Origin: Mya arenaria
Taxonomy: Eukaryota > Mollusca > Bivalvia > Myida > Myidae
Assembly (NCBI RefSeq): GCF_026914265.1
Contig: NC_069133.1
Location: forward strand, 4,895,985-4,959,984
DNA length: 64,000 nucleotides
Reading direction: 5' to 3'
Part shown: positions 3,801-39,314 of the stretch, in pieces
How the letters are laid out: the number at the start of each line of letters is the position of its first letter
Numbering within the stretch: the first letter of the stretch is position 1
Translations under genes and position numbers: made by a program
Notes under the pieces: model-generated
The model's database searches: none
What the model was told of the DNA's origin: nothing
What the model saw: only the letters and a program-made list of their open reading frames with translations

Positions 3801-3809
3801 CACAATTTT

Positions 3810-6200: not shown

Positions 6201-6249
6201 GGGATGGCAGATTCAGTGAGGATGAACCATCAAAACTACTGATGACAAA

Positions 6250-13944: not shown

Positions 13945-14035
13945 GCATAAACTCTAGTTGGGTTACCCTAAAACATAATGCAAAAATGACGTGGCCTACA
14001 AACATTTCTATTTACATCGAAGTGAAATCGAAAGT
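13945..14035 (+). promoter_or_regulatory. Putative promoter module of RLR gene 1 (CRE/ATF-like site plus ISRE)
   Basis: An ATGACGTGGCCT block (the CRE/ATF-like core TGACGTGG at 13987-13994) is followed by GAAATCGAAAGT at 14024-14035, which fits the interferon-stimulated response element pattern GAAANNGAAA(C/G)T bound by IRF proteins. The same two elements in the same order and strand, with flanking similarity (GTAATGCATAAA upstream, TTTTAGAAAA and GATCAATAT downstream), occur upstream of RLR gene 2. Conservation between the paralogues is seen directly. IRF/ATF control is inferred from motif knowledge. No TATA box is evident. Confidence 0.6.
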
Positions 14036-14039
14036 ACAG

Positions 14040-14283
14040 TTTTAGAAAACAGATTGTGAGTATTTTTAGAAACTTACGAGGAAGAGGATCAATATGTTAC
14101 CTTCTGTTCGTCGGTATTCTTGTTATCTTCATTTGTGACATTGTTATTTTCTAAAATTCCTTCGACTTATATGATGGTAATATGTAATTTGACAAAAATG
14201 ATAACATAATGATTTCAAGCTGCATCATTGGACAGGACAACACATTTTCACTGTGACATTGGAGATGATAACACAATAGCAAG
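14040..14283 (+). other. Probable 5' untranslated exon of RLR gene 1
   Basis: Downstream of the ISRE there is a splice donor AAG|GTACGTGAG at 14283/14284, and the ATG exon is preceded by an acceptor ending at 14693 (TTTTCAG). This predicts a noncoding first exon, as in gene 2. The transcription start is not visible and the exon start is approximate. Confidence 0.4.
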
Positions 14284-14695
14284 GTACGTGAGTTTTCTCA
14301 TGTTCTATTTTATTTATACTAGGACATTCTTTAAGTCATTTAATTTCCTAGGCAAATGATGAAGCTATCGAGAGTGAAATGCTTGTTTACCAGGATCGGA
14401 TGATTTAAAACTTGTCAAAACCTGTCGTGCAAAATAACGGGGATATATCGTTGAGTTCAGCACTGCTCCCTAAAGAAAATGAAGCTGGTAAATATTATAC
14501 ATATTTTTGTTTATATAAATGACTAACCAAAAAAAGAACCGGGAATAATTAATATAATTAAATTGATATATTTTCTCCTTTTTTTATATTTTTTTAGACA
14601 ATTACTCATGTATTCATTTTGATGTCTAGTTATTTGAGTTATTTCCCTTTGATTGAATTAATCTAGTCTCAATAGTCCAGAAATCGTTTTCAGAA

Positions 14696-17600
14696 ATGTC
14701 TGCAGACATATACCCTAAAGTGTCACTTCTAGAGGAGAGATTGAAATTTTGGAGGATTGAAATTGTACGATGTTTGGACAAGCCAACATTTTTATCACAA
14801 TTGGCTGCTAAGGATGTTTTCAACGAAGGTACATGCATATTTTTTTTACAGGATATGGAGTATGTCTCTGATTTTAAAGGTGTCTTATTATCGATTCTTA
14901 TTTTGGTTAATTGATATGGTAGCTAAGGCTCCTTCGTTTACACGTGTAAACGGCGTTGTGTCGTTTTTCGCCCGTACACGTTCACAAAACCTCAGACCGT
15001 TTAACCGAAACGGTCACACTATTTATAAGCGTACGGAAATATTCTCTGTATTCTCCGTGTCGTGTGCAGTTAACGAGGTTGGTTTCGTCAGTCTTAAGTG
15101 TGGCAACATTTCACTAAATTTGAAAAAGATTGTCGTATGAAGGTTAAGTGCAACTTCTGTGGAACGGAATTATCGTATTCGGGAGGAAATACAGGAAAAA
15201 TGACGAATCATTTGAAGCACGCCTATAAATCTATTAAACAAGACCGCAGTATTTGTTAATATACACATTCACTCATCTACAAATCTCGTAAACCAAAAAC
15301 CTGTAGTACGTGCTAAGATGCTGATTAACGGGAATTTACTTTATTCCCGAAGATAAATAGTGAATTTCTAAATAAATATGTTTAGTATTGTTTAACAATA
15401 ATCCCCATTGAGAGGACAATCTGATAAAAATAGAAAATCATGACATTACAACATGTGTTAATACAGCGTGGATATGAATGAAAGATCGGGAATTTGAAAA
15501 AGAAATATTGGATTAATTTCCTCTAAGATTTAAATAAACAGGTAAACAGAAAGTTGAAATTGGATACTGTAATCCATGCCTACTAGAATACAAGCGGTGA
15601 TTATTCATCTTGATCAATGAAACATGAAGATATCTATTGTATATGTACGTACAGGCAGTATTTATTTACTACGACCTTTCCTCAACGGCATCGGTTCGTT
15701 TTCATGTACCGTGTACAAGTTTACAAAAATATGTAAACGTGGGAGCCTTAATGGTAGCTTTAGCTGTTTTTCAATACTGTATAATGACTTAAATTAACTT
15801 TACACGAGAAAGGATCGCATCGGTTTTAAAGGCGATAAAAAAGTAACATTTAAATTTAAGGTCGAAAAACGTTTTGCATTCAAACGCCAAATAGTTGCAA
15901 TATAGGAACACATGTAAATAAATATGCGAAAGTACCAGTTCATGAAACTATCTTTCAACATTGTTTTTAGCGCCTAAACACTATCCACATAACTTGGTAT
16001 TGTGCCCCGGATAGTGCATGTATATCGTACACTATACAATATTGTAGTTTCTTTTTAATGCGGCACAGAACAATGTTGTGTGGATAGTTTTATATATTAG
16101 GGAGCGATTCAATGTTGTACGGATTGATTAATATATTGGGACACTATCAAATGCTGTGTGGATAGTTCCATATGTAGGGGCACGAAACAATATCATGTGG
16201 GTAGTGTCATATATTGGGGAACAATACAATGCTGTATGGATAATTTCACATAAAGGGTAACAATGCAACATTGTGTGGATAGTTTCAATTATAACTGGGC
16301 GATACAATAATGTGTCATGGTTTTTATACATTTGGGGCACTATTCAATTATGAGTGGATATATGAGCCTTAGTATATATATATATATATATACATATATA
16401 TATAATTATCCACACAACATTGAAAAGTGCTTCAGTATATAAACTATTGTGCCTTAATATGTATCAAACTATCCACAGAACTACATAGTGCCCAAATATA
16501 TGAAACTATTCACACAACACTGCATAGTGTCCCCCAATATATGAAACTATCCACACAACATTGCATAGTGTGCCCCAATATATAAAACTATCCACACAAC
16601 ACTGCATAGTGCCTAAATATATGAAATTATCAACACCACACTGCAAAGTGCTCAATATATGAAAATATCCACACAACACTGCAAAGTGCTCAATATATGA
16701 AACTATCCACACAACACTGCATAGTGCTCAATATATGAAAATATCCACACAACACTGTATAGTGCCCCAATATATGAAACTATCCATCCAACACTGCAAA
16801 GTGCCCCAGTATATGAAACAATCCACACAACACTGTATGGTGCCCCAATATATGAATTTATCCACACAACACCGTACGGTGCTCAAATATATGAAGCTAT
16901 CCACACAACACCGTTCCCTTAATATAATAACTTTCAAAACAACAAATTGTAGTGTTCCATTTTAAAGATCACTTGTAGTCCAATACAGATCAGTTTGCAT
17001 TTTCATTTTTAATATATATTCAAATGACCAATTAATAATATTCGAAAGCAGTTCGACACAAAAAAGCTTAATAACAAAAGTGTAGACAAAGTACTTTTCC
17101 GTGTGATGTTAACGGATTTTGAACGAAATTCCAGAACCTTCTGCGTGCATATGCTATTGCTAAATTCCCCTTCTAACCAAAGAAATTATGTTTTAAAAAT
17201 TCAAACGAATACACGTAAAGCATTTTACAATATTGAAATATTTTGCTTTCCCAACCCCCTTTTCAATTGATGAGCCTAAATTCATTGCACTTGCAGATGA
17301 AAAGTCGAGGTTATATGATATATATCAGAATCGAACAGCAACAGAAGCCGGAGAGGCTGTTCTGGACTCCTTTGGTAGAAGCTCTGCTCCAAATAAGTGG
17401 ATGTCCTTCCTAAATGCACTTGAACAAGAAGGTTCGTTAGTTTTATTTAATAATATATAAGCTTTTCACACATACTTACAGTTATGAACTTCTTATACAC
17501 TAATATTTTCTTCTACGGGTTCAGGAATTTTGTAAATAAGCATTCATTGACTAGCATACTGACATATTTCTTGGACCAGCTGAATACAGTTGTGTATTAA

Positions 17601-20600: not shown

Positions 20601-23600
20601 GTGCGGAAAATCCGATGAACAAGTTATTAATTTGGTGTGGCCTTAGGCACGTTTCATAATTACTTTTTCACATTTAATACTTTTCACTTTATATAAAAAA
20701 CAAGAAAGGATCTTTACAATTATATAAATTCTAAATGTCGTTTTATATTTTCGAGTATACCATACATTTTTATTCATTTACGAGAACCGATCCGGTAATG
20801 TTTTAATTGTGTCTACGAGTTGTCTAATTGTCGATGACAAGCCGGTAAAAGCATATCAATTGTTAAATTCTCAACCTTGTTTGTCACATTTTCAGAGCTG
20901 GTATACGTCAAGTCATTACTGGAAGAAGATAATGTAGGTTCGGAAAAGGACAGGTTAAGAGGTCGAAAACTGATACGACTCTTTGGTCCGGAACTAGAGA
21001 AAACTATTAATCCAATAGACATAATAAGCAGCCTTGTTTCGAAGAAGGCTATAACAGAAGTGGACCGCGATGAAGTGCTAAATCTATGTCATACCAAAAG
21101 CAGGTTGTATGGTATAATGTGTCTTTTGCGCAGAATGCAGTCTCAATTACGACCAAGGGAATGGTATTACGAGTTCCTTCGCGCGCTTCGGGATAACGAC
21201 TACACCTCGGAGTGTGAACTTTTAGAGCCGGATTTCTTGGAATGCCCTCATATGTTTGATCCTGAAAACGTTTGTAAGTATTCCATCATTTTAATAATAG
21301 TATTCATATTTTAGATGTAGTTGTATGTCGAGATCTGTTTAAAACAACTGCGAACAATTAAAAGGGCAATGCCTTAATACATTTATAAATGGGCCCAGTT
21401 AATCATGAAATAATGAGCATTTGTTTGATGAAATAACATTTTTGAAGTACACATGCTTTGCAAAAATGAATATTACGTAAAATCGTGTTCTTTAAAGGTG
21501 AAACACCAACTGATGGGGTTAAAGAACAGCAAACTGGTAAACAGATTCTTCGTTTTATTAATATTCATGTACAGCGTATGAAATAACATTTAAAGTTATC
21601 GGTTATTTAAGATCATCTTATTAACAAAAAGCTTTGATGTAACTTCTTTTTTTAAAGCTTGTGGCGCGTCCGAAAAAAGATCACAGTGCGATCAATCTTT
21701 GGAAGGAACAGACAAGGCGAAAGTATTTTCATCTAGTAGTACGGACTGCAAGAAAGCACTCAGTCTAAAAGGTCAAGTGAACTTTTATAACATTTTTAAG
21801 GACCATGATAGTCAATCAAACATTTGACGAAACAAACATAATATCGTGCTCGATACAAATACAAAAGTGGAAGGATGTGCTTTAACTGATTTGTGTTCCT
21901 TTCTTGATTTCATATGGTTACTTAAGTACCAATTTTAACTTGTTCAGATCTGTTCATAATACATATAACTTTTGGGTGTATGGATTTCAACCATCTCATT
22001 AGACCTCGCCATCTAAAAATGAGAACTGTTTATAATAATTACTGACCTGGCCTAGAAATCAGAACGGATTGTAATTACTCCAGGCCTCGCACTTTAGAAA
22101 TGAAAACTTTAATACTTACTACATATCTCGCACTTTAGAAATTTTGAGCTGTATATAACTACTACAGATCTCGGACTATAGAAATGATATTTTTTACTAC
22201 AATCGTTTGATACGGCGAACACATTCATGTACTATTTGCTTTAATTTTAGATCCAGACCCCGTACATGAAGACGATGCTGTACAGTCGGACGAAGATGAA
22301 CTTGATTCTGATTCAGAATACAAAGACGATTTTCAAAGTTTGTGTATTATATATCAGTTAAAGAATAATTAAAAAAATGAGGAATGTTAGTTAGTACGTT
22401 CTAAAGGCATTTGATAATTTAGATAGAAAATAACCAATATCTATAGTCGTTACAAAAATTAAAGTTAAATGACGGATATTTCTGTTGAATAATAAGGCTT
22501 AGATATTATATAATGTGTGTGTAATTTAGCAATGACGGGTATGAATGGTCTAGTATCATATGTGTCAGACCATAACCCAAGAGGGTATGGGTTCAATTCA
22601 AGCTAGGTCGAGAGTTCTCTTGTTGTATTGGTGACTGCAACTCACCTAAGATCCCCACCAGGGTTTCCTTCTCGTGGCTTCTCAAACTGGACACCACTAC
22701 TGGTTTATATCCAGGAACTGGGATCGAGAGTAATTCATCAGCATTTGTCATTGCCGAGGTTACTGAAACTACTATAAGGATCTTAAATATTGCAGATCCA
22801 AAACTTTGTCTGAGGGATTACCAGTATGAACTAGCTGAGCGAGCGATTAAGGGAGAAAACACCATCATAAGCGCTGAGACGGGGACTGGCAAAACTTGGG
22901 TTGCCTTGCATATCGTCTCAGAGCATCTTAATAAAGGGACGAAAGGTATAGACTCTCGCTTTTGTTAAACATTCAGCCAACGTAGCATCTGCTATTTAAT
23001 ACATTCCATATTTGCTGTTAGTTCATGAATATATCTACAGTCATCTCTTATAAACGTGGTTAGCATATGGCACCATACTGTTGAAATATTAGTAAATTAT
23101 AAGTGCTCGGTATATTTAAGGAGCCCGGAAAGTTGTAGTCATGGCTCGAACAGGAATTTTAATTCGCCAGCAAGCAGATAGATTTAAGCAGATTCTTCCA
23201 AATTATAACGTAAGTATCTCGTCATTCCGATTTTCTTCAAATTAAATTATTTAAGTTTGTTAATCGTTTGACTGATGAACATATGTTTTATCCAGAGTTA
23301 TTTCTCTCTCTATACATTTACAACCTTTATGTAAAATGAAATGGTGACCAAATTATATAATATACAATTTTAGACCAAGTTTATATCTGGAGGAGAAGAT
23401 GAATCAACGATGCTTCATGTCTTCGTGAAAGATGCGGATATCCTCTGTTTCACGCCAAAGATACTTGTCAACAATTTAGAGAACGGGAACATACCAAGTC
23501 TTGCTGTATTTTCCTTGTTGATATTCGACGAATGCCACCATACAAAGGGATCGGGAGCGTATGGAGAGCTTGCAAGGTTGTACCTTACAGAGAAATTTGA

Positions 23601-26600: not shown

Positions 26601-29600
26601 TCGGCCAAGGTCCCGGTTTTTTTGGGTGTAATTGAAAATTGCATTTGTTTATCCTTTGATTGCTTTATCACAGGAACGGCATGTGTTTGTTCAAAATATA
26701 TCGACTGTGATTACGGATCAATGAAAATTGCATTTGTATTTTTGCTATTATTGCTATAATTTTCACGTAAAAAAGTATACCCAAGCATAGTTTACGTAAA
26801 AAGCAGCTACTTAAAATTGATCGGATTTTGGCGATCGTTTGCGTTTACCTTTCTTTAAGAAGTACTTTGTTTTAAAAATATCGATATCTGAAAATTGCTT
26901 TTTATCATCGACACATTCTACTTGTTATAACTGGACTTCTTCCAGTAGTCTACATGCATTATTCTATTTTTCAGACATCTGTTTCTCAGTGTGTGAACCA
27001 GATATCATCGATGTACTTGATAAAAGGCCACGGGAAAGGGGAACTATCGCATATTACGGCTGGACAATACAAATAGACAAAACAGCAAAACGATTTGTTC
27101 ACGATCCCGAAAGTCTTCGCAATATTACAACGTGTGCAACGTATTTAAATGTACGCAATTTTATTATTCAATACTTCTCGGGAACATTTTTTGAAGAATC
27201 CTAGCAGCAATTTCGTTCCTAGGATATATTTCATATGTGCACTAATTCCATTGGAAATTTGTTTTTTTAATAGTTATTGTTTGCATTTGCGCACCTTCAA
27301 TCTTACCCAGTATTATTTAATGGTGTGGATGGTGCTACAGGAGGCTTTCTGGATGTATTGATATCGATGAATGTATGTAACATAGTGCTTTTATCCAGGT
27401 CTACTGTTCTGCGTTTGAGGTGAATACACTTTTGCAAATTCGAGATGTTATGAAATACTTAGCAAATGAGACAAAAGAAGAAGCTGAGAGGAGATCAAAA
27501 TTTACTGACCAAGAAAAGGAACTATTTGAAAACTTCAAGGGTATGGCGTTTTTTTGTTGTATTTTATATGTAAATGTTTAGATTTTCCCTTTTCACTTAC
27601 TGATACTCTCATAACGTGTGAACTGTTTATAGAATTACAGAAAGATTTAACTAAGAAAAGCAGAGATGTTGACGCAGCCAATCCAAACGTCGAGATAATT
27701 TGCGACCAGCTAACAAAAATGTTCCAGGAAAAGGGTCCAGAGTCAAGAGCTATGGTCTTTGTTAAGGCAAGAGCAACATGCTTAGCACTTGGAGATCTTT
27801 TGGACAAACGATTAGTGTATAAAGCTCGATGTCTGTATGGACAAAAGAAAATAGGATCAATGAATGGTAAGATGTTTAATAAAAAGAAATTCTCATATAA
27901 GCAGCCGTTTGATGAAACATACATATTAATTTGGAAACTAATTAGAATGGGTCGATATATATTATATGTTTTTCTACTGATTTACCAATAAAATTCAAAC
28001 AGAGCTGTATAACAGTTGAAATTGCTGAATTAAAACTTTTCTGCAGTGTATTTCTTATCTTATAAATGGAGATGTGATGTTTTTCCAGGTATGAGTCAAG
28101 AAGAGCAGACAGAAGTATTGGAGAGGTTCAAGGAGGGCCGCTTTAAGATAATTGTATGCACGTCTGTTGCAATTGAAGGGATAGATGTTCCAGATTGCAA
28201 TATTGTCATCAATTACAACTACTCTGGTGATGAAATCACAAAGATACAAATGAGAGGTATCCCGTTATTGACATCGTTCTGAACAATTGGCTTAAACCGA
28301 AAATGTATTTTTCAGACATAATCCATCCAGTTTTGGAATACATATGAAACAATTAAATATTTTTTTATAATTAATAATGGTAAACAAACCCATCCTAATA
28401 GGCCTGCAAACGGCACACCGTTCTTTTACAAGGAAAGCATTCACTGTCAATCTTTAAATATCTACATGAAAAACTACAGAAACAAGCTCAGTAGCCAAAT
28501 GTTTAAACATAAACCCCGTTTAATGACACAGGGTAAACGCCAAACACATGAAACACAAAAACAAAAATAATCACAAACAAGATACACTGAACGACATCAC
28601 GAAGCTACACAAAAAATACAGTGCATATATTCTATATAACAAAAGTTATGTATGTTTATCAAGGATTGTCAGGTACCGCCTTGGAACGGTCAGTAAAATG
28701 TAAATTTACTGGGGGGTTTAACTAGCTTGTGTGCACCACCTCAGTCTTATCCCAACAATCCGATTAAGGTAAAAGCGTATAAGGTAAACCTTATCAAACT
28801 ATGCATTAATTTGATGAAACCTAAACGAAAAATGAATAATAATGAACTAATAGGTAACCCCCATGCTTAAATATAGGGATCCCGACTCTATCTATAGATA
28901 ATGTAACACAATTCAGAGTACCAAATACAAGCTGCAAGTTTTAAGGTTAAGTGAAACATAATCACCTCTTTTCTGGCCCTCAAAAAACCTGCTAAAATAA
29001 TGCACTTCATGTTTTAATTTTACATCTGATATCACCATGGCTCTTCATGTTTCTACTTACTCCTATATACATTGCCAATATGGGCATTGTGTACATGCTG
29101 ATGTTGTAAGACATTGAAACCTACATAATGAAATAAGTTACGAAAGCTGAACTTATCATAAATATTTTGGTTGGTATCGTTGTAGGAAGAAGCCGAACAC
29201 ATGATGCATCCACAGTCACACTTGGAAATGAAAAGTTAGTTGAAAAAGACATGGTGAATGTCTACAAAGCCAACTTGATGTACAAGGCAATGGACACCTT
29301 TAAGAAGATGGACGCCCATGAATTGGAACACAAACTATACTTGTACCAGAAAGAGGAAGTACGGAAGCAAATAAACAAAACAGATTTGTTAGAAGCAATG
29401 AGAAACCGTCAGTCCTCCGATGATATGGAAATTCTGTGTGTCAAGTGCATGAAATACATTTGTCACGTGTCTAGCATGCGTGTACTATCCGGAAGTCAAC
29501 ATTTTGTCATCACTGAAGAGTTTCCGGAAAAGGCTGATAGGAAGCCTCATAAAAGACCAGAACGCTATTTTGGGCTCGATAAGAAAGAGAAAATGTCATG

Positions 29601-29805
29601 TAAACGGTGCGGCCAAGACTGGGGTATCGTTGCGCAAGGACTTGGTTATGACATATTCGTGTTTAAAATAGGAGGAATTTTGTTCCGACAAGAAGATATA
29701 GACAAAATCCAAGACTTTCAAAAGTGGGGTCTGGCTCCGAAAATGATTGACTGCACTTTGGACGAAATTCCAAAACTTTTAGCATACCAAAACCGACAGA
29801 AATGA
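14696..29805 (+). CDS. RIG-I-like receptor gene 1 (CARD-CARD-DECH helicase-RD), 16 coding exons
   Basis: Cytosolic RNA sensor of the RIG-I/MDA5 family. It should bind viral-type double-stranded or 5'-triphosphate RNA, hydrolyse ATP and signal through CARDs to a MAVS-like adaptor. Exons: 14696-14828, 17297-17431, 20896-21273, 21498-21536, 21658-21771, 22251-22337, 22796-22945, 23121-23209, 23374-23622, 23895-24057, 25662-25748, 26975-27150, 27399-27540, 27633-27866, 28089-28256, 29186-29805. All junctions are GT-AG and keep phase, giving 987 codons (RIG-I 925, MDA5 1025). CARD1 spans residues 1-89 and CARD2 90-215. An acidic Ser-rich linker runs to about 295. Motif I AETGTGKT is at 322-329, Ia MARTG, motif II DECH at 427-430, [26 protein letters not shown] and VI QMRGRSR. 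The regulatory domain has zinc ligands CVKC (866-869) and CKRC (920-923). The start lies 2 bases after an acceptor. Assignment to RIG-I versus MDA5 is not settled. Confidence 0.95.
14924..15750. mobile_element. Non-autonomous hAT DNA transposon in intron 1 of RLR gene 1
   Basis: The terminal inverted repeats TAAGGCTCC...GGAGCCTTA extend imperfectly over about 20 bases (CGTTTACA follows on both sides). They are flanked by an exact 8-bp target duplication ATGGTAGC at 14916-14923 and 15751-15758. An 8-bp duplication and ends of this type define the hAT superfamily. The element is 827 bp, too short for a transposase, and keeps one BED-finger open frame. The intact duplication suggests a fairly recent insertion. 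Confidence 0.9.
15137..15259 (+). CDS. BED-type zinc-finger ORF inside the hAT element (40 aa)
   Basis: An ATG-to-TAA frame of 40 codons carries the BED finger pattern: VKCNFCG (the Cys pair), about 17 residues, then HLKHAY (the His pair is NHLKH). BED fingers are the N-terminal DNA-binding domain of hAT transposases and of ZBED proteins derived from them. The catalytic domain is missing, so this is an internally deleted transposase remnant that might still bind element ends. Expression is unknown. Confidence 0.7.
   Translation: MKVKCNFCGTELSYSGGNTGKMTNHLKHAYKSIKQDRSIC
16036..16925. repeat. Inverted array of a 39-bp satellite in intron 1 of RLR gene 1
   Basis: About 16036-16370 carries diverged copies on the minus strand, and about 16408-16925 carries about 13 copies on the plus strand, of a 39-bp unit containing ACTATCCACACAACACTG and CAATATATGAAA. 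The two arms meet at an AT-dinucleotide tract (about 16370-16404), so the array could fold on itself. Because 39 is divisible by three, several frames stay open across it. These are repeat artefacts and not genes. The same unit forms the array at 63262-64000. Confidence 0.92.
17792..18057. repeat. Tandem duplication, two near-identical 133-bp units
   Basis: Units 17792-17924 and 17925-18057 differ at only a few bases. Each unit contains a short inverted pair around CATGACGTCAATC and GAGGACGTCATGA, so TGACGTC CRE-like half-sites face each other. It lies in intron 2 of RLR gene 1. The near-identity shows a recent duplication. Confidence 0.9.
18059..18137. repeat. Hairpin with 23-bp arms
   Basis: The arm at 18059-18081 (TCGAGGGGTGAAAGCGAAAA...) is nearly the reverse complement of 18114-18136 (...TTTTCGCATTCACCCCTCGA), with one mismatch and a spacer of about 32 bases. 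It directly follows the 133-bp tandem duplication. It could be the end of a small foldback element. Confidence 0.8.
18438..20642. mobile_element. 2.2-kb TIR DNA element in intron 2 of RLR gene 1
   Basis: Terminal inverted repeats of about 38 bp (left starting GGCCACACCAAATTGATAAC, right the reverse complement with a few mismatches) are flanked by TTA on both sides (18435-18437 and 20643-20645). A 3-bp TTA duplication fits PIF/Harbinger-type integration. The only coding content seen is a short, acidic, spliced frame on the minus strand that is not clearly Harbinger. It is a non-autonomous element of uncertain superfamily. Confidence 0.75.
19670..20283 (-). CDS. Small two-exon ORF inside the 2.2-kb TIR element (about 100 aa)
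   Basis: The first exon starts with ATG at 20283 and runs to 20067 (donor CAG|GTGTGT). The second runs 19755 to 19670 after an acceptor TTTCAG, and frame is kept across the junction. The protein has a middle part rich in Asp, Ser and Phe ([20 protein letters not shown]) and a Cys-rich end. The acidic N-terminus with a 'VL-F---DSD' start loosely resembles piggyBac transposase N-termini, but piggyBac uses TTAA sites, which are not seen here. No catalytic domain is present. Function unknown. It could be a truncated transposase. Confidence 0.35.
22000..22192. repeat. Degenerate tandem repeat, about 45-55 bp unit, four to five copies
   Basis: Copies share CTCGCACTTTAGAAAT or variants (CTCGCCATCTAAAAAT, CTCGGACTATAGAAAT), each followed by an AACT...TAATTACT-type segment. 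It lies in intron 5 of RLR gene 1. Confidence 0.7.
22530..22750 (+). mobile_element. tRNA-derived SINE fragment in intron 6 of RLR gene 1
   Basis: A tRNA-like head contains an A-box-like GGTCTAGTA and a B-box-like GGGTTCAATTC spaced as in a tRNA. A non-tRNA body with CCCACCAGGGTTTCCTTCTCG follows. This is the layout of RNA polymerase III SINEs. A related body (CCCTGGTTTCCCC on the minus strand) appears near 58210-58320. Confidence 0.65.
24058..25661. other. Intron 10 of RLR gene 1
   Basis: A 1.6-kb intron, AT-rich, with no recognised gene. Parts of it are matched in order in the decayed copy (for example around 24650 versus 32460), showing that the copy arose by DNA duplication. Confidence 0.7.
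28440..28745 (+). repeat. Dispersed repeat R1, copy 1
   Basis: An interspersed repeat of about 300 bp. Ordered landmarks are ACTACAGAAACAAGCTCAGT, TTTAAACATAAACCCCGTTT, GGTAAACGCCAA, AAACACAAAAACAAAAA, CAGTGCATATAT and GGTACCGCCTTGGAACGGTC. It lies in intron 15 of RLR gene 1. Other copies are at 39690-39960 (same strand), 30325-30545 (opposite strand) and a fragment at 35716-35795. No coding capacity is visible. It could be a SINE or a small DNA element. Confidence 0.8.
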
Positions 29806-30324
29806 CTTGCGCATGTAAACAATATCTGTTTTATGACATTAACATGTTAATACTATGGTCGTTGGAATTTGCTGTGTTTTTTGTATGCAAGATAAATTAT
29901 ATTTGGTATTGCTTCTATTCTTTTGTGGCTTTATAGGAACGTATTGTCTGATGATAACAAGTTATGTGTTTTATTTATATTCTTTAAAATAAATTAGGTT
30001 GAGTATAAACAAAGTATGTGTGTAAATATTAATCTGGTCATGAATCGTTTTTCAGTAGAGGTTTATCATTCTTGTAACATATATTCACAACATATTTGTG
30101 TGTATTGTCCAACTCTTCATTTAAATGCCATCGTTTTCACTTCATTAATTTGATTGTGTATTATTTAACGTTAAGCTTAAAATTAAAAAGGAACTCGTTG
30201 CCAGCTGATTTCATATGATATAGATTAAAAGGGATTTCATATACTCAAAATTTACATGATCTGCCAAGCAAAAAATGAAATGTTTTATTATCTCAGATCA
30301 TCTAGCATTACCCAAGGTCATCTT
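29806..30324 (+). other. RLR gene 1 3' untranslated region and flank
   Basis: Follows the stop codon. An AATAAA-type polyadenylation signal occurs near 29988 (AAAATAAATTAGG). The sequence stays alignable with 36400-36680 beyond the decayed copy, so the duplicated block extends past the gene end. Confidence 0.45.
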
Positions 30325-30545
30325 ACTGCATGCAAGACGGTACCCAAAAATCCTAGTTTTCGTTATAGTATATATGTACTGTGTTATTTGTAGAGTTTTG
30401 AGCTGTTATTCCATGTTTCTGGTTTGTGATTGTTTGTTTTTGTGTTCTTTGTCTTTGGCCTTTACCCTGTGCCATTAAACGGGGTTTATTTTTTATTTAA
30501 ACTTTAGGCTATTGAGCTTGTTTCTGTAGTTTTGCATTATTGATA
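30325..30545 (-). repeat. Dispersed repeat R1, copy 2 (opposite strand)
   Basis: On the minus strand it reads ACTACAGAAACAAGCTCAAT, then AAACCCCGTTTAATGGCACA, GGTAAAGGCCAAAGACAAAG and CAGTACATATATACTATA, matching copies 1 and 4 in order. It lies between RLR gene 1 and its decayed copy. Confidence 0.8.
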
Positions 30546-31293
30546 ATGAAGCCTTCATTATCGTGGTTTAAGTAATTGCAGATTTGGCATTACTAAATTC
30601 AGCATTTAAAGCACATAACCTAAATTTTAAAAAAAATGTGATTTTACGAAATTGATTAACATGTTCACGAAACGCTTTGTAAATCTGTTTGCTATGTATA
30701 TACTATTTGAATATGCATAGGACGCAATCATAAATATAAACACTCAGAAATAAAACAGTGTTTTTATAATGTGTATAATATATTTTATAGTTTTCCAATG
30801 ACCTTTATTCTGAGAGTATTGTGCCTGTATTTTTATACGGTGCTATTCATATTCAGCACAAACTTTTTCCGCGTTCTTAAAGTACCGTATTGATTTGTGT
30901 ATACGTTTTTTTTTCCGAAAAATGCATTTTTCCCAGAAAACCGGGATTTGCTTATTGGCTGTCGTTGAAAATGATAAATTTCGAAAGGAATGTAGCCTAC
31001 TAAAAAGGCAACTTAAAGCTTTTAAACAAACGAAAGCTTTTGAACAGAGGGCCCGATTTCTGACTTTTGACACTACCGGAATGTTCGGCTGGAAAATTGC
31101 ATTATTTCGCTCTTCTCCAATGATGTTCCAGGCGCGTTTGCAACAATAAAACAAAGTTTCAATGAGATAACTTTTTTAGGAAAATGGCAGGTCGATGATA
31201 ATGATGTCATCAAGAAAGACTGCATCTCACCAAGATGTTTAAGGTTTAAGGTTCGATCCCCACAAGGGTTACCTTCATTGCCTGTTTGCGTGT
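30546..31293. other. Intergenic stretch between RLR gene 1 and its decayed copy
   Basis: It holds an open frame of 84 codons at 30895-31149 (plus) with a basic middle part but no recognised family, and I do not call it a gene. At about 31240-31275 a B-box-like GGTTCGATCCCCACAAGG suggests a SINE remnant lying right at the start of the duplicated block. Confidence 0.4.
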
Positions 31294-34200
31294 TCAGAAC
31301 GAAATGGCATTTATGTCTACTGTTTGACGGCAATAAGTCATAAACAGGATGTGTAATATATTAGCATTTGGAACATATTTGCAAAAGTTTTTTGTCACTC
31401 GGAACTCGTCTTACAGTCTTAAACTGATCTGAACATTTACCGCCTATGTTTGCTACGCTAAGGACATTTAATGCAGTCTACGAATTACAATTCAGTTTCT
31501 TAGTTATCAGATTGTTGTTCTGACTGCGTCTATTGGAGTAGGAAATTCAAGGAATGAGGAAAATGCTGTAGAGTATATAACTTAATTTTTTGTAGCACTC
31601 GACGTCAAACGGCTAACAACTGTTAAAGTATGCAGAACTAGTTTTGAAAAGCACGTGAATACTCCGAAAGAAGGTCTGGTGTGAAGATATCTAATACTTG
31701 TTGTAAAATATCTACACGAATAGCCGTAGCCCTAATTTGAATTGATGTTGAAGGTTGATAATATCCTGATATTCACATTGATTGAAAAAAGTGACTTAAG
31801 CTCAACACACTGTTTCACTTATTTTAACTCGATAACAAAAATTTGCACACAGTTCTTAGAAGAAAACTCTATTTCTGGTGTGATATAATTTTGCTTATTT
31901 TTCTAATTCAATATATATTAGTATGCTTTTCATGAATAATATGCTTAAAATAAAATTAAAAAGTTTTTTAAGTGTAAAATTGCAACTTAGTTCACCGAGT
32001 GAGCACAAAAAGTATATTTCACGATTTACTACACTAAAACAAAAAGTTATCCGCTACTTCGTTCTTGCTTTTCGGTGAAATATGGCGTTTTATAAGTAAA
32101 ATAAAACAGTGAAAATAGTAATACTTCCACTGCAAACTAAGGAATAAATATCAAATTTGAAGACTAGTTTTGAAATCAATTGGAGTTACTATCCTTTGAA
32201 TAAAAAGGAATACCCCACTTTTGAAACATTTAATTATATAAAAAAATAGTTCGACAGAAATGCATATTTTCAAAGAAAAAAATGGAAAACAAAACATTAC
32301 TTACCGTTTATAAGGGTATGGGCATACTATTTTTCAAACGTTTTCTTGAAGATCAATGCCCGAACATTAACTTTCATACAACCTGCCTACAAGCGATTCA
32401 GACTGTTTTCTGACAATGAACGTGTTTGAATATCTATGTATCATGCAAAAAAGTTTTTTATTTTCAATGTTTATCACTTTCACTATCGACCTTTCAAATA
32501 TTTATTAAATAATGGTAACATCTGACCAGTGTAAGATGGTCAATGTATAAACTGGAATCATTTGAAGCATAAATGCATTAATAAAAGTTTATATATGAAC
32601 GTTTATGATATGCATGCACGGAAACACAGTACATTACCTAATATCACCATTTATTGGATGAGTGAAATCGTGATATACCTTGCCTTGTTGACTTTAAATA
32701 CGATGCTGGACCTAGTCGTATGCAATAGTATTCTAGCTCTGCTGACGGGATAGATGAGGCGTATCATTGATCTACTATCGTATTTGGAAACTATGTTTAT
32801 CACAACATGATTGTAATTTGATTTCACTAATAAGATGAACATCATCCATATTTATGTTAAACCTTCGCGTAAATTTGTCTTGTTTATTTAATGTCATGTA
32901 CATATCCGTCTTGTGGATGGCGATTGTTTCTTGTATTCATCCAAGTTTATGATGTGTGACATGTAGTCTATTTAAAGACTGGAAAGCTAGTTTTGAATGA
33001 TCAAATCGATGCTCTTACACGGACGAAAACTTAAAAAACAACAACAGAAAACAACACAAATATCTAATGAAAAGCAGTCTAGTTTCACACAAATTTAGGC
33101 AAAAATTGTGAGGTAACAATTTCTGGCTAAGCCCTAAAACACCTCTCGCGTTTTGAGCGCAACTCTTTGGAAGGATCTCGTTCTTTACCCGAAGTGTATA
33201 TCGCAAATGTTGATGCTAACAGTGCAAGTATAGTTATGTGTAGTGAATAACAACAAAGGGATCAGATTAATGTTTAAATTCTTTTATGTCCTGATTTTTT
33301 TAATTTAAATTTAAAATTGCATTTTTTATCCTTTGATTGCTTTATCACAGAAACGTCATATGGTTGTTCAAAATATATCAATTGTGATTACAGAACAATA
33401 AAAACTGCATTGGTACTGTTACAATTAGTCCTATACTTTTTCTTGTAAGAGTTTAAATAGCATAGTTTACGTAAAAAAACAACTACTTATAATTAATCGG
33501 ATTTTGGCGATCGTGTGCGCGTACCATTCTTGAGGAATTACAATGTTTTAACAATATTTAATTGATGTCTGGAAATAGCTTTTTATCATTGACGCATTCT
33601 ACTTGTTATCACTAAATTTCTTCCAGTAGTTGACATGCACTATTTTTTTTGGCATTTGTTTGTCAGTGTGTGAACCAGAAATTATCGAATTCTTGATAAA
33701 AGGCCACGGGAAAATGGAACTCTGGCATATTACGGCTGGACAACACAAATAGACGAAAAAGCAGAACGATTTGTTAACAATCTCTACAGCCTTCGCGAAA
33801 TTACAACGTGTGCAACATTTTTGCCTGAATCCTAGGAGTATCGTACTTAGGAGATATATTCAGAAGTGCACTAAGTTTATTCGATTTTTTTTCGAGGTAC
33901 TAAGTAATTCCTAGGATTTTCAATGAACACACTGGTTGGCTATGGCATTGTTGTACTTGCCGATGAAAAATCTCGAGATTTATATTTTCTTTCCGAATTG
34001 TACTGCAATCAAACTATCCCTGATATTATGTTTTTATTTAGGGTTTCTATTCTGCCATTGAGCACCCTCAATCTTACCAAGGTTTCTGATTTCATGGTGC
34101 GGATGGTGCTACTTGGAATTCTTTCGAATGTACTGATATCAATAAATATCTCTAACATTGTGTTATTTATCTAGGTCTTCTGTTCGGCGTTTTGGGTAAA

Positions 34201-35905
34201 TACGCTTTTGCAAATTCGAGATGTTATGAAATACTTAGCAAATGAAACAAAAAAGAAGCTGAGAGAAGATAAAAATTTACTGACCAAGAAAAGGAACTGT
34301 TTGAAAACTTTAAAGGTATAGCATGTTCTGTTGCATTTTGCATGTAAACTGTTGATATTAAGATTTCCCCTTTTTGACTGATACTCTCATAACTTGTGCA
34401 CTGTTTTTAGAATTGCAGAAAGATTTAACTAGGAAAACCTGAGAGGTTGAAGCAGCAATTCTAACGTTGAGATAATTTGTAACCGGCTAATGAAAATGTT
34501 CCAGGAAAAGGGTCAAGAGTAATGGTCTTTGCAAGAGGAACATGCGTAACACTTGGGGATCGTGGGGACAAAAAATACTCTATAAATCTCGATGTCTGTA
34601 TGGACTAAAAAATAGAGACAGTGAAAGGAAAAGCGTATATTATTATTATCATTTTGATTTAATTCGCGTATTGACAGCTGCTTGGTGAAACATATACTAG
34701 TAAGTATTAGGAAACTAATTAGCATTTCAGGGTTGAAAAAAGTTCATAAGAAATGTAACGATAGGTTTAATACTAATTTAACAATATAAATCAAATTGAG
34801 TTATATTACTGTATACTATAATTAAAATCAAACGAAACACTTTAAAATTGTTGATATGTTACAGCTGAATCGGAATATTTTAATATTAGGTTGGATTTCG
34901 TACCGTTTAAAGAAATATGATGTTTTGCTAGATATGAATCATGAATAGCAGACAGAAGTTTTGTTCAGGTTCAAAAAGGGCAGCTTTAATATAATTTTAT
35001 CCACGTCTATTGCAATTGAAGGGATATATGTATTTAGATTGCAATATTGTCACGAATTACAACTTCTCCGATGACGAAATGATAAATATACAAATGAGAG
35101 TTATCCCGTTAGAGATATCGTGCTGAGCAATTGGCTTAAACGAGGAACGTCGGTTTTAAATTTGAACTTTCCAGATTTTAAAAACGATAGATCTATCAAA
35201 TGTATTATATATTGTGAAGTAATTATTAAACACATGCCTGTAGGGCCACACACGATACGTCGTTCAATAAGCAGAAAGAAGCCGAAGGTATAATGCCCCC
35301 CACAGCCACAATTGAAAATGAAGGTTAGTTGAACAAGATAAAGTGAATGTCTACAAAGCCAATTTGATGTAAAAGGCTAGGGATACCTTTAAGAAGATTG
35401 AATTGGAACACAAGCGAGATATTTACCAGAAAGAGGAAGTACGGAAGCAGGTTAACAAAATTGATTTGTTTGAAGCAAGGAAAAACCATTAGTTCAAAGA
35501 TGATATGGACGTTATGTGTGTATAGTGCATGAAATAGATTTATCACGTGTCTTACATGAGTGTATTAACTGGAAGTCAACAATTTGTCATCATCCAAGCA
35601 TTTCCGGATAAGATTGGTAGGAAGCTTCACAGAATACCAGATCCTGCTCGATTCGAATAAAAGTATAAAAAGTCTTGTAAACGTAACATCCAAGACTTGG
35701 GTAACGTTGTAGATAGATAGATAGATAGTTTATGTTTAAACTTGTCGCTACTGAGCTTGTTTCTGTAGTTTTTCACATAATTTGGACACGACATATTCGT
35801 CTTTAAACTGAAAGCTTTCTGTTCCGACAGGACGATATAGACAAAATCAAGGCTTTCAAAAGCGGGGTCTGGCTCCGAAATTGGAAATTATGATATTGGA
35901 TGTTA
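31294..35905 (+). pseudogene. Decayed RLR copy: 3' half of gene 1, introns retained
   Basis: Similarity to gene 1 begins abruptly at 31294 (equivalent to 23677, inside intron 9) and continues in order. Exon-10-like sequence is at about 31510-31673, exon 12 at 33665-33830, exon 13 at 34174-34315, exon 14 at 34410-34640, exon 15 at 34925-35100 and exon 16 at 35270-35900. Introns are also alignable, so this is a genomic duplication and not a retrocopy. There are many stops and frame changes, for example TAA within exon 10 (ATAACTTAATTT), TGA in exon 14 and TAA after AATTTGATG in exon 16. CARDs, motif I and the DECH box are absent. A fragment of repeat R1 with (GATA)n interrupts exon 16 at 35716-35795. 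Confidence 0.93.
35716..35795 (-). repeat. (GATA)n tract and fragment of dispersed repeat R1
   Basis: A run of TAGA units is followed by GTTTAAACTTGTCGCTACTG and AGCTTGTTTCTGTAGTTTTT, the R1 5' end in reverse. It sits inside the exon-16-like part of the decayed RLR copy, so R1 inserted after the duplication. Confidence 0.75.
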
Positions 35906-36831
35906 CTACAATGTAGGGGCGGATCGGCGTATCAAGGATCTGGTGTAAGAGGAGGCGTAACATTAGGGCGTAACCTTTTGACTTGCAGACCGCCCCCAAA
36001 CCCAAGATTAATATGGTTTAAAGTGTTGAGAGGGGGGGGGGGGACCTCCCCCAAGACAATTTTAACAATTATTAGTCCGAAATGGTTCATATTTGGCGGA
36101 TTTCTTTAATCTCTTTTCCCCTGTATTGATTTTAAAAGTAAACTTAGGCGAGTATAGTGGTATGGGCGCGCGCCGGGTCCATCCCTCCTGGAACCGCTAG
36201 TGCAATGTACTGTGTTGTTTGCATACAAGATACTAGCCCAATTCTATTAGACATTATCATCATTATTGATGCTATTTTACAAACATGTGTTTTGAAACTG
36301 GATCGTCATTTATGTTCGTTCCTTAAATGTTCGCTTGTTTAAAGAAGACATGTTGAAAATACATTTCAATTTTGAATGTGAATTTGTAAATGAAGTTTAT
36401 AATTATTACGTGTATACTGTTATTCTGGTCGTGTATCTTTTTGCAGAATAACTAAATCATTCTTGGTGCATAAATATATTAAGAATTATAAATATTTGAC
36501 CGTACCGTCAAATTCGTCGTTGAAACTTTGTTTAGTCTTGAATGATAAACTTTTTTTCAATGTTTCTTGTAATTTCAAAAAGAAACATACCAACAACTTA
36601 AATCATTTGATATAATTGACTCGAAGCATTTACGCGATCTGCCAGACAATCTTACATTATTTAAACAAATGGCATCTTATATCATCTTCAGTTTTCAATA
36701 CATCAAGATTTGGACAAAAATGATTATTCTATGATGATTGAATTTAACGTTTTTATTTAATTAAATACACATTTTCATGAAAAAGGGTGTTTACGAATTA
36801 CAGACATAAAATAAAAAACATCCGTTTTCAT
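35906..36831. other. Flank of the decayed RLR copy
   Basis: Includes a G12 run near 36027-36042 and sequence near 36420-36680 still alignable to the gene 1 3' flank (around 30030-30290). No gene was recognised. Confidence 0.45.
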
Positions 36832-37283
36832 TGTAACTTGCGAAACTAAAGAGGCAACAGATCCTTTCAGAGAAAAGAATGCTCATCCCTAAAGGGGTCA
36901 ACTGGTCTTATATACAGTATTTTCTCCGTCCACACGGAGAACTGGTTATGCCAATTTGCATATAACCAAGTACATCAACGTACTATAAACGTACTTCCGC
37001 CTAGAGCGGAACGTTAGATTACTTATTCCTCCGAGAAGATTCGCCCCGAGGTTTAGCCTGAGAAACTCGTTGGTACGGCAATTCCGATCCGGCAGTTGTC
37101 TTCACCGCTTCCAACATTTGTAACGTGCGAGTCTAAAGACGCAACAGATCCCTTTAGAGAAAAGCATGCTCAACCCTACTGGTTTTATATACAGTATTTT
37201 TACATGGATAACTTGTTAGGCATATTACCAAGTACATCAACGTACTATGAACGCACTTCCGCCTACAGCGGAACGTTACATTA
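36832..37283. repeat. Direct duplication, two units of about 165-185 bp
   Basis: Units at about 36832-37018 and 37119-37283 share GTAACTTGCG or GTAACGTGCG, GCAACAGATCC, TTATATACAGTATTTT, AAGTACATCAACGTACTAT and CTTCCGCCTAGAGCGGAACG. Each keeps a small hairpin TTCCGC-CTAGA/CTACA-GCGGAA whose stem is preserved while the loop differs. A G/C-rich spacer separates them. Function unknown. Confidence 0.75.
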
Positions 37284-39038
37284 TCAATGGTAAGAACCGC
37301 TTTTACAATGAGTTCAATAAAAAACACGTACCTAACATTTCGGGCGTTATACTAGTCTTTGCTTTCGTTTGTCGTTCGGTTTTGAGTTAAATGAACTATC
37401 GCACTGTTTCAGTGTCCAACCCTAGGTGAATGACCTATCTTATATTTTGAACTTCAGCTTCCGTCCTCATTAAAAAAAAATGTTGTACATATGAACGACA
37501 TGGAATCGATAAGGGTTCATTCAGTGGCATCACCAAGTGTGTGGATGCGATGCACTGATGGATCAAGGCGCATCCCCACCCACACCCAAAACAAAATCTT
37601 CCGAAATTATTTTTAAATTTCAATATAGGAGAGAATAAAGGGAAAAAATAAGCCCAAAAATGCACCATTTCAGACAATAAATTGTTTAAATTTTCTTAGA
37701 ACTGAACCTCAAAACTCCCTTACCAACCCTTTAAACCAAAAAATCGGTTCTGATGGAGGGGCGCAATTCAAAAGGTAACGCCCCTAAGTTAAGCCGTCTA
37801 TAAATTTGAATCCTGGATTCACCCCTGCGATACATCTGCTCCGGATGCGTGTCGGTGAGTTCATCGGCTGCTCGTTGTTTCCGTTTGCTTTTCAAGACGT
37901 TTTATCATTTTAAATAATCATTTCTTCAAATTCTGAGTTTAAGAACAGTTCTTTATAAAACAAATCATCGAAATCTTAAAAAACCCGCCTTATATTGCTG
38001 CGGTGCAGACTACAACAAACATGTGTACTCTACACGTATCATAAATGTACTTTTTCAAGTCATGGGAAGCAAATGAAAAAGTAGTCCCGAGTAGTCTGCG
38101 GTAAAATGATGAAATGTTATTATTTCGCTGGAGCCAAATAATCGTTAACCTATTTTCCACATTTTCTCCGATGAGCATGGAATACTACTTGCATAATTAT
38201 ATTTTTTCAAATAAAAACATATTTGATTTTGAAATGTCGTAATTTAAATTTCATACTTTACAATTTACTATTCTAATATATCATTTTAGCGAGTGACTCA
38301 TCCGACCGTAAACGCAGTTTGATGCTTATGTAACCTGTATTGCATGCAGGACTTTGCATATATATATTTTTTTTTATAAAGTTTTAAAGTTGAAGCCCAT
38401 TTCCATGAAATCAATATGAATTTCACCAAAATTAAATATTTTCTTTGCAGTGTTTCTGTATAACATCGGGACTATTCAAAACTGTACACTTTCTTTTGTC
38501 AATTCAGTTCAGTTTAATGCATTTATTAGCTTTAAACCTTCAAAAACGAATATCATTAGCGGAACTGGCTTACAAAAAAAACAACATTTATTAGTACTAC
38601 GTTATTGTAAAAAGAAGGATTGTTAATGACTGAATGAACATAAAAGGAAAATCAGTGGAAACGATTGGTAATGATATGAGAATGAATGCAAATTACTCCA
38701 TATCAATGTAAATAAACAACGATTTGCATTTGAATAGCAATTGCGTACATAGATAAAGTCAAGAGTTTTTCTCAACTATCGAAGACATGTTCATAGCAAA
38801 CTTATCAATATACAGGTCGCATATATTTACTTGGGATATATTTTACCCAAATCTTGTAATTTGGACACTTCATTTTCGCTCATTCCCGGCCTGTTATTGC
38901 GTAAACATATTCACATAATATTAACATATTCATAATTAAGTTCATTTAGTGTATATTATAATAAATAAAATATCAACTTGAAGGGGCATTGTAGCTGACA
39001 ATTATTAATAATAAATATAAAGAAGCAAACTAGTAGTT
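37284..39038. other. Intergenic stretch between the decayed copy and RLR gene 2
   Basis: No recognised gene, array or transposon was found in this AT-rich stretch. Confidence 0.45.
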
Positions 39039-39046
39039 CTAACCAA

Positions 39047-39130
39047 TACGTAATGCATTAAAGCGAACACAGAATGACGTGGCCTTTCGTGGCCCTTCGT
39101 GGCCTATGAAATGAATTCGAAAGCGAAAGT
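39047..39130 (+). promoter_or_regulatory. Putative promoter module of RLR gene 2 (CRE/ATF-like site plus ISRE)
   Basis: GTAATGCATTAAA is followed by AATGACGTGGCCT (TGACGTGG at 39075-39082) and by GAAAGCGAAAGT at 39119-39130, a strong match to the IRF-binding ISRE pattern. Downstream TTTTAGAAAAT and GATCAATAT are also shared with gene 1. Between the two sites GTGGCC[CT]TTC is repeated (39079-39103). Order, strand and approximate spacing are as in gene 1, whereas the wider flanks are diverged. This suggests selection on the module or recent common descent. Confidence 0.62.
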
Positions 39131-39139
39131 AGAATTTTA

Positions 39140-39314
39140 GAAAATAGCGCGGGGGGATTTTAAGAAAATATCGGGAAGATCGCAGATCAATATAATGGAG
39201 TGTTTGGATATGTTCACTTTGTTTGTCAATAATATACCATTTAAAAGGCTTTGTTAATCCAAACAGATGACATTTCTCTACCTTGGAAACCATACGAATT
39301 GTATAATTTAAGAG
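39140..39314 (+). other. Probable 5' untranslated exon of RLR gene 2
   Basis: A good donor AGAG|GTAAGA lies at 39314/39315, and the ATG exon has an acceptor TACATTCAG ending at 41733. This would leave a 2.4-kb intron in the 5' untranslated region. The exon start is approximate. Confidence 0.4.

Follow-up and report, generated by a model that had tools for sequence, protein, structure and literature searches.

The two RIG-I-like receptor (RLR) genes in the window, the whole 64-kb stretch of Mya arenaria DNA analysed here, appear to be old duplicates whose upstream likeness has nearly gone, save for one short two-site island. This island, in which a bZIP-type site is followed by an IRF-type array (ISRE), suggests that these sensors may be under a switch of the interferon type, old and still needed. 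In both genes the shared element is closely followed by a predicted non-coding first exon (Table 1). The reading that we favour, with a probability of roughly 0.6, is that of a conserved proximal promoter that would predate the split of gene 1 and gene 2, and that would serve IRF-responsive, virus-inducible amplification of the RLRs.

Table 1. Features of gene 1 and gene 2, in window coordinates
Feature	Position	Strand	Basis
Gene 1 bZIP-type site ATGACGTGGCCT (CRE/UPRE-like)	13986..13997	+	Exact match; within 13-base word common to both genes
Gene 1 IRF element GAAATCGAAAGT	14024..14035	+	One GAAANN unit fewer than the 6.29 Mb copy
Gene 1 conserved core 3' of ISRE (ACAGTTTTAGAAAACAG onward)	14036..14095	+	Genome match search, shuffles
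Gene 1 non-coding exon 1, predicted 5' splice site GT	14177..14178	+	Read from sequence; aligns with that of gene 2
Gene 1 first coding exon (MSADIYPKV...)	14696..14830	+	N-terminal, presumed CARD region
Gene 1 ORF with CARD_2 match	20838..21314	+	PF16739 38 bits, cut-off 28.2
Gene 1 last exon ORF, RIG-I C-terminal regulatory domain	29137..29805	+	PF11648 73.1 bits; PDB 4a2w (RIG-I) E 6.8e-24
Gene 2 bZIP-type site ATGACGTGGCCT	39074..39085	+	Exact match
Gene 2 IRF array GAATTCGAAAGCGAAAGT	39113..39130	+	Includes strict ISRE 39119-39130
Gene 2 conserved core 3' of ISRE (AGAATTTTAGAAAATAG onward)	39131..39193	+	Alignment, shuffles
Gene 2 non-coding exon 1, predicted 5' splice site GT	39315..39316	+	Sequence AAGAG|GTAAG
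Gene 2 first coding exon (MASFEEDME...)	41743..41877	+	
Gene 2 last exon ORF, RIG-I C-terminal regulatory domain	50320..50940	+	PF11648 88.4 bits; PDB 4a2w (RIG-I) E 2e-23

The identification of both genes as RIG-I-like, made in the first-pass annotation, is borne out by Pfam matches to the regulatory domain (RD; PF11648 cut-off 25.6 bits) and the helicase, and by PDB matches of the RD ORFs, which are headed by RIG-I-type chains and also include MDA5. The SF2 helicase core is found in one exon ORF per gene (ResIII, 25.7 and 28.8 bits, cut-off 22.5), and the same ORFs score 25.5 (just under the cut-off of 26) and 28.3 bits with the DEAD profile. At the N-terminal end, Pfam gives no match for the first coding exon of gene 1, alone or fused to the next exon, and no CARD match for the gene 2 ORF at 43260-43619; the first two coding exons of gene 2, when joined, score 16.2 bits for a CARD, which is under the cut-off. 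In gene 1, an alternative and stronger-looking GT lies at 14284.

An identical ATGACGTGGCCT had been described upstream of both genes, and the two exact copies are the only ones in the window. The IRF-type matches to GAAANNGAAASY also lie where they had been placed, with GAAATCGAAAGT in gene 1 and GAAAGCGAAAGT in gene 2, and both consist of two GAAA half-sites 2 bp apart, which is the ISRE/IRF-E consensus G(A)AAAXXGAAAXX as given in PMC5035021. The start-to-start spacing of 37 and 44 bp is correct when counted from TGACG (38 and 45 if the count starts one base earlier, at the A of ATGACG), and the difference between the genes is mostly one GAAANN repeat absent from gene 1. Counted across the whole window, the single motifs are not rare. 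For instance, TGACGTGG occurs twice against 0.84 expected, with as many in 19 of 100 shuffles, and GAAANNGAAASY three times against 0.88 expected, a number reached by 4 of 100 shuffles; the third match is on the minus strand at 45162-45173, inside the gene 2 body.

The conserved block is longer than previously described, as it includes about 60 bp 3' of the ISRE, with the core CGAAAGTANANTTTTAGAAAANAG. When the two 5' flanks are aligned locally, the highest score, 52 against a maximum of 37 in 300 shuffles, belongs to an alignment that starts at the ISREs (14024-14095 and 39119-39193). The block of bZIP site, IRF array and core (13985-14052 versus 39073-39147) aligns with z = 10.9, and the gene 1 core at 14053-14095 aligns to gene 2 with z = 6.2, neither being equalled in 500 shuffles. 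Each part also aligns by itself, with z = 7.3 for the ISRE plus core and z = 6.7 for the bZIP site plus its 60 bp upstream (0/1000 shuffles for both). Between gene 1 and gene 2 no alignment is found for the spacer within the island (z = -0.4), the 200 bp upstream (z = 1.3), the far upstream sequence (z = 0.3) or the intron (z = -0.4). In the 100 bp that immediately precede each ISRE, the longest word common to the two genes is 13 bases, a length matched by none of 2000 shuffles and none of 4936 random window stretches. Over the whole flanks, counts of common 10- to 13-mers are near chance and uninformative (one 13-mer versus 0.44 in shuffles for the 2-kb and 4-kb 5' flanks), and the shared word is therefore notable only for its position. 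A coding explanation of the island was rejected, the conserved blocks lying in differing reading frames in the two genes, with stops.

The RD exons of gene 1 and gene 2 are 42% identical (86/205 aa), and only 6 of 28 fourfold sites are identical, which is to say that they are saturated. Since neutral sites are saturated and the flanks unalignable, a block free of constraint would be expected to have decayed as well. This tells against the motifs being a relic of tandem duplication, alike by shared promoter ancestry and with no present function. The promoters are indeed homologous, being colinear in a MAFFT alignment and present as four distinct copies, which fall into two related clusters, but with fourfold sites at saturation and with spacer, far-upstream and intron sequence beyond alignment, such a relic seems quite unlikely. 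The conservation of the element, which has outlasted the saturation of neutral sites, would accordingly appear to be more than an echo of the duplication. Close pairs are uninformative in this respect, the sites being not clearly better preserved than their surroundings; the intron of gene 1 matches that of the 6.29 Mb copy at 185 of 190 positions, and the bZIP site of gene 2 matches that of the 4.995 Mb copy at 10 of 13.

The near-uniqueness of the extended block is apparent from the 1.2-Gb genome. The strict pair TGACGTGGCCT-N20-40-GAAANNGAAAGT has four matches, all on C12 and each with the first coding exon of an RLR downstream of it, as against none for a reversed-pattern control. The match at 6.2158 Mb is not independent, because the gene 1 region is repeated there in inverted orientation with 100% identity across 3,049 bp. 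A fifth place bears a variant of the pair, and the module totals four distinct promoters at five places. The exact core CGAAAGTANANTTTTAGAAAANAG was likewise found at five places, every one an RLR promoter of this set. The looser pair TGACGTGG-N18-46-GAAANNGAAA is at chance genome-wide, with 22 rows versus 25 in the control; six of these rows (five places) are RLR promoters, and three further rows, at 62.4-62.9 Mb, fall about 0.45 kb 3' of RD exons and do not represent promoters. The loose module was thus rejected as the mark of a genome-wide regulon, and the core with up to three mismatches gives 175 matches versus 248 in the control. A repeat origin of the RLR promoters was also rejected: promoter queries of 301 and 331 bp each match only three genome places, so that these promoters are not a dispersed repeat, and in the two promoters compared only 19-28 bp around the array are common with repeat R2.

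The claim that both paralogues share the module is true of gene 1 and gene 2, although the sharing is partly common descent and two close paralogues lack the module. Among the 34 RD-bearing copies in the genome, 5' ends were compared in a minority. The paralogues at 6.341 and 6.370 Mb have first coding exons 87% identical to that of gene 1, and the module is missing within 5.5 kb upstream of them; it is also missing within 1.5 kb of the 21.47 Mb exon array, where the upstream sequence is different. Lone GAAANNGAAA matches with no bZIP site occur upstream of the 6.370 Mb paralogue and in L071 and L072, one in each. The 6.341 and 6.370 Mb paralogues and the 21.47 Mb array have an alternative upstream sequence in common, and 5' ends have therefore been exchanged in this family. 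Such exchange is what promoter capture or gene conversion would entail, whereby one lineage took the promoter of the other after coding divergence, and the likeness would reflect later transfer instead of long constraint. The nearest relative of gene 1 also varies by region, being the 21.45 Mb copy for the RD exon (71% identity, versus 65% to 6.26 and 62% to 6.32) and the 6.29 Mb copy for the first coding exon (96%), with the identical 6.2 Mb copy set aside and the 6.353 RD left out. However, a recent transfer would have brought spacer and flanks along, yet these are unalignable, and the promoters group by gene type (gene 1/6.29, 92% identity; gene 2/4.995, 86%). We regard capture as improbable.

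In-phase GAAANN half-sites number two in gene 1 and gene 2 and three in the 6.29 and 4.995 Mb copies. A reading in which the array serves chiefly as a repressor or basal element for an IRF2-like or PRDM1/Blimp-1-like factor, while stress or tissue expression depends on the bZIP site and there is no virus-inducible IRF switch, is very unlikely; PRDM1 also reads GAAAG cores, and Blimp1 reportedly opposes Irf1 according to one paper, but two or three half-sites in phase fit an IRF dimer better than a single GAAAG core. A bZIP site equal to the UPRE consensus (PMC8301375) and the binding of ATF4 at the human RIG-I promoter (PMC12509678) would also suit such a reading.

For the upstream site, the initial label of CRE/ATF-like is too specific, because TGACGTGG is the consensus of the unfolded-protein-response element (UPRE) favoured by XBP1s (PMC8301375), and is thus of the XBP1 class; both promoters carry a putative UPRE of the form TGACGTGG/A. 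The aligned distance between bZIP and IRF sites in the four promoters is 38, 38, 39 and 30 bp. The proposed likeness to interferon-beta control is weak. The interferon-beta enhanceosome combines a kappaB site with IRF and ATF/Jun sites, at a fixed and close ATF-IRF spacing, and resembles the clam promoters in joining ATF and IRF sites within a single control region. The clam modules, in contrast, have a bZIP site of another class and a long spacer that is unconserved between the genes, and the kappaB consensus GGGRNWYYCC has a single match in the 64 kb, at 32207, and none near either module. A kappaB partner of the interferon-beta kind was rejected, and the close fixed ATF-IRF spacing is likewise missing.

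IRF-controlled RIG-I promoters are already known, and the clam case would add to them. Human RIG-I (DDX58) is driven directly by IRF-3 via a proximal IRF-E at -17/-5 (PMC5035021). What it has in common with the clam RIG-I-like genes is an GAAANNGAAA-type element near the transcription start, which in the clam is a presumed one. The human gene combines IRF control with feedback, of which a clam counterpart is proposed from sequence. The human IRF-E has an ISRE and GAS nearby, with an IFN response through STAT1 as well (PMC5035021), whereas the clam promoters differ in their conserved upstream site of putative bZIP type and in belonging to a bivalve, a group in which classical interferon is not known. 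The binding of ATF4 to the human RIG-I promoter (PMC12509678) likewise places a bZIP factor, putative in the clam, on an RLR promoter. The human ATF4 sites, however, are 1.1-1.7 kb upstream, whereas the clam site is of UPRE type and 30-39 bp from the IRF array. In oyster, also a bivalve, IRF sites have been proposed in RLR 5' flanks, and predicted IRF and NF-kappaB sites are stated for RLR and immune promoters (PMC6685332); these are motif predictions over 2 kb, in contrast to the specific block that outlasts neutral saturation in the clam.

If the favoured reading of a conserved, IRF-responsive promoter is correct, the ancestral promoter would have comprised a bZIP site (TGACGTGG, UPRE/CRE class), a tandem GAAANN array 30-39 bp downstream that an IRF dimer could read, and about 60 bp of conserved core extending into the predicted non-coding first exon. 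A virus-activated clam IRF would bind the array, possibly aided by a stress-activated bZIP factor, and would raise RLR transcription, such that sensing of viral RNA would induce more sensor in a self-reinforcing feedback loop. Were the array such a switch, RNA-virus sensors would be under direct IRF control in molluscs and vertebrates alike, and this control could have been a feedback step without secreted interferon. Because the promoter block is short and varies naturally (GAAANN units numbering two or three; promoters that have or lack the module), a direct test within a single species is possible. A wider version seems doubtful, in which a composite ER-stress and IRF promoter would drive an RLR amplification loop without classical interferon, within a network of ISRE-controlled IRF genes and hundreds of IRF arrays spread by transposon-like repeats; this would parallel, independently, the way in which endogenous retroviruses wired interferon responses in mammals.

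The genome contains IRF genes, with 10 exon matches that pair into five DNA-binding domains. According to PMC5557890, mammalian ISRE and IFN-beta reporters respond to oyster IRF2 and IRF8, and oyster MAVS alone gives no ISRE activation in HEK cells; the paper also states for oyster that classical interferon is not known. A literature search on Mya arenaria, RIG-I and promoter returned no paper, and no report of ISREs in bivalve transposons was found among the top-ranked literature, which does not imply absence from print. In the 1.2-kb piece between two R1 copies (C3:6.734/6.739 Mb), Pfam was applied to two of the four ORFs and gave no match. Tandem ISREs are present upstream of two of the five IRF genes. 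In addition, at least two dispersed repeat families contain perfect IRF arrays, in 221 and 20 exact copies. With ISRE arrays dispersed by repeats in this way, an ISRE match by itself says little in this genome. Such repeat-borne arrays would raise the question of a rewiring of antiviral networks in a group without known interferon.

The two RIG-I-like receptor (RLR) genes of the window, gene 1 and gene 2, each carry, ahead of a first exon predicted to be non-coding, an island composed of a bZIP-type (CRE/UPRE-like) site, an ISRE or IRF array of GAAANN units, and a conserved core of ~60 bp. The first-pass annotation had placed both sites upstream of both genes and had called the genes RLRs, and this is borne out: each promoter has the two sites, the bZIP-type site in exact form, and the genes are recognized by C-terminal domain and helicase exon matches and by solved-structure relatives, with RIG-I-type chains at the top and MDA5 also among them. 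The difference between the 37- and 44-bp spacings that it gave is mostly gone once distance is measured to the homologous array start, being 38 bp in gene 1, 38 in the RLR copy at 6.29 Mb, 39 in gene 2 and 30 in the copy at 4.995 Mb (Mb values refer to contig C12, which holds the window at 4895985-4959984, unless another contig is named). The array of the 6.29 and 4.995 Mb copies is GAAATCGAAAGCGAAAGT, with three GAAANN units; that of gene 2 differs by one substitution (GAATTC...), and that of gene 1 has one hexamer fewer.

Positions of promoter, gene and repeat features (window positions unless a contig is given)
Feature	Position	Remark
Gene 1 bZIP-type site	13986-13997	ATGACGTGGCCT
Gene 1 ISRE	14024-14035	GAAATCGAAAGT
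Gene 1 non-coding first exon, donor GT	14177 or 14284	predicted
Gene 1 coding start	14696	
Gene 2 bZIP-type site	39074-39085	ATGACGTGGCCT
Gene 2 ISRE	39119-39130	GAAAGCGAAAGT
Gene 2 non-coding first exon, donor GT	39315	predicted
Gene 2 coding start	41743	
Exact motif pair	gene 1; gene 2; C12:6.2158 Mb; C12:6.2905 Mb	four places
Pair from looser search	C12:4.9954 Mb	first coding exon 4.9990 Mb, RD 5.0087 Mb
R1 copies	C3:6734209 and 6738959	same strand
GAAAGCGAAAATGAAAGT pairs	C1:43935762/43943336; C2:1329569/1337315; C2:15956105/15963314	same strand
Partial RLR copy	31293-35883	between gene 1 and gene 2
Mobile elements	2460-8291 (-); 54325-55164; 57303-57665; 56115-56464/61366-61715	
Minisatellite	16396-16910	intron after gene 1 first coding exon
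Minisatellite	63283-64000	window end, 78-bp period

Taken singly, the motifs are ordinary in the window, TGACGTGG occurring twice against 0.84 expected (reached by 19/100 shuffles) and the ISRE pattern three times against 0.88 (4/100). In the assembly of 1.216 Gb in 18 contigs, the exact pair separated by 20-40 bp is found at four places, versus none for the reversed pattern used as control, and an RLR first coding exon lies downstream in all four. Over 3,049 bp, the 6.2158 Mb place matches the region of gene 1 with 100% identity, the two copies representing either one event or an assembly duplicate. A looser search adds the 4.995 Mb copy, where a gene-2-like first coding exon follows 3.6 kb downstream and the C-terminal regulatory domain (RD) ~13 kb downstream; genome-wide, this looser pattern is at chance (22 matches versus 25 in the control). 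The extended core CGAAAGTANANTTTTAGAAAANAG is exact at five places in the genome, all of them these RLR promoters, and at up to three mismatches gives 175 matches versus 248 in the control. Since one of the five is an identical copy, they amount to four distinct promoters, those of gene 1, of gene 2 and of the 6.29 and 4.995 Mb copies.

Dispersed repeats are one source of IRF arrays. Three-unit arrays are 2.4 times commoner than in the reversed control (904 versus 371), and much of this excess is due to repeats. The perfect IRF array of one family, R1 (GAAAGTGAAACTGAAAGT), has 221 exact copies versus none in the control, and all eight stretches compared are homologous (L089-L096, 418 bp). Two R1 copies on C3 lie 4,750 bp apart with 98.3% identity over 418 bp, like paired LTRs, and a second site upstream in R1, GAAAGTGAAAGG, is exact in 5/7 aligned stretches, with GAAANNGAAA kept in 6/7. 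GAAATCGAAAGCGAAAGT itself is exact 22 times in the genome (99 places versus 52 in the control at up to one mismatch), two of these being RLR promoters; among the other 20, all 17 stretches compared (L098-L114) belong to a second family, R2, which the RLR promoters resemble only in 19-28 bp surrounding the array. Pairs of GAAAGCGAAAATGAAAGT separated by 7.2-7.7 kb also look like paired LTRs. Because repeats spread IRF arrays, a bare ISRE proves little in this genome, and the case for these promoters depends on the conserved block.

The RLR promoters can be aligned colinearly, and common descent is therefore part of the answer. The divergence of gene 1 and gene 2 is old, however: their RD exons are identical at 86/205 residues, and fourfold sites at 6/28, near the level of unrelated third positions, so that unconstrained sequence should have vanished, and mostly has. 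In shuffle tests between the two genes, z is 0.3 far upstream, 1.3 for 200 bp upstream and 3.1 for the nearest 60 bp (2/500 shuffles), rises to 10.9 for the bZIP-ISRE-core block (0/500), is 6.2 for the 43 bp after it (0/500), and falls to 1.3 and 1.6 beyond those and -0.4 in the intron. The spacer by itself gives -0.4. The ISRE and core without the bZIP site give 7.3, and the bZIP site together with its upstream 60 bp gives 6.7 (0/1000 each). A 13-base word common to the 100-bp stretches upstream of both ISREs is matched by 0/2000 shuffles and 0/4936 random window stretches; over whole flanks one common 13-mer, versus 0.44 expected, is near chance, and the weight is thus carried by position. 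A spacer that has decayed between two preserved ends would be expected of two binding sites and a core promoter, and is not the expected trace of a recent conversion tract. Within-pair comparisons of close promoter copies were weak. Coding sequence is ruled out, as the reading frames of the island contain stops and differ between the genes.

The module is not universal in the family. The paralogues at 6.341 and 6.370 Mb have a first coding exon identical to that of gene 1 at 39/45 residues, and neither has the module within the preceding 5.5 kb; the 6.370 Mb stretch has one GAAACTGAAATT at its far end, on the opposite strand. Both share with an exon array at 21.47 Mb an upstream sequence unlike that of gene 1, which argues that promoters have been swapped among RLRs. 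In this gene-1-like class (L066-L072, L085, L086), homology to gene 1 begins just before the first coding exon, which at 21.47 Mb occurs five times within 10 kb, mostly ~2.27 kb apart. The genome has 34 RD matches, a minority of which had their 5' ends inspected, and seven pairs among 30 compared are at least 99% identical. Near-perfect inverted RLR duplicates lie at 4.9 versus 6.2 Mb, 33.65 versus 34.22 Mb and 62.3-63.0 Mb; apart from the 4.9/6.2 Mb pair, six pairs share 99.25-99.97% identity over 3.3 kb; such duplicates reflect recent segmental duplication or an assembly artefact.

Candidates for binding the bZIP site are XBP1, ATF6, CREB3-class and ATF factors. TGACGTGG is reported as the UPRE consensus of XBP1s (PMC8301375). 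Ten IRF-domain exon matches make up five DNA-binding domains (DBDs) in the genome. The IRF gene at C5:10.892 Mb (L087) has three ISREs in the 1,410 bp examined upstream of its DBD exon, versus 0.06 expected in the locus (three reached by 0/200 shuffles), one being GAAAGCGAAAGT as in gene 2; that at C5:10.783 Mb (L115), probably its duplicate, has two in identical arrangement in 500 bp. These are two of five genes, and the two are not independent; GAAANNGAAASY was not found in 500, 500 and 1,500 bp upstream of the remaining three. Judged from sequence, such tandem ISREs suggest IRF self-regulation.

Human RIG-I is described as driven directly by IRF-3 via a proximal IRF-E (PMC5035021) and as also acted on by ATF4 (PMC12509678). 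Oyster IRFs, and not oyster MAVS alone, are reported to activate ISRE reporters in human cells (PMC5557890), many predicted IRF and NF-kappaB sites are stated for oyster RLR flanks (PMC6685332), and bivalve RLRs are described as tandemly expanded (PMC8998645). The clam promoters thus fit an already known type. Their proposed IRF-type control, the mechanism of which we infer, has better support than motif scans provide.

The third RLR copy in the window, partial and probably a pseudogene without its 5' end, consists of eight segments that match portions of gene 1 between 23673 and 29745 at 73-84% identity. Surrounding mobile elements include retroelement-like ORFs (one with DUF5641), a Tc-type transposase, and a DDE_Tnp_4 transposase flanked by 350-bp inverted repeats that are 99% identical. 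The two minisatellites of the window are related, and repeats like them also come after the first coding exon of the RLR copies at 6.29, 6.34 and 6.37 Mb.
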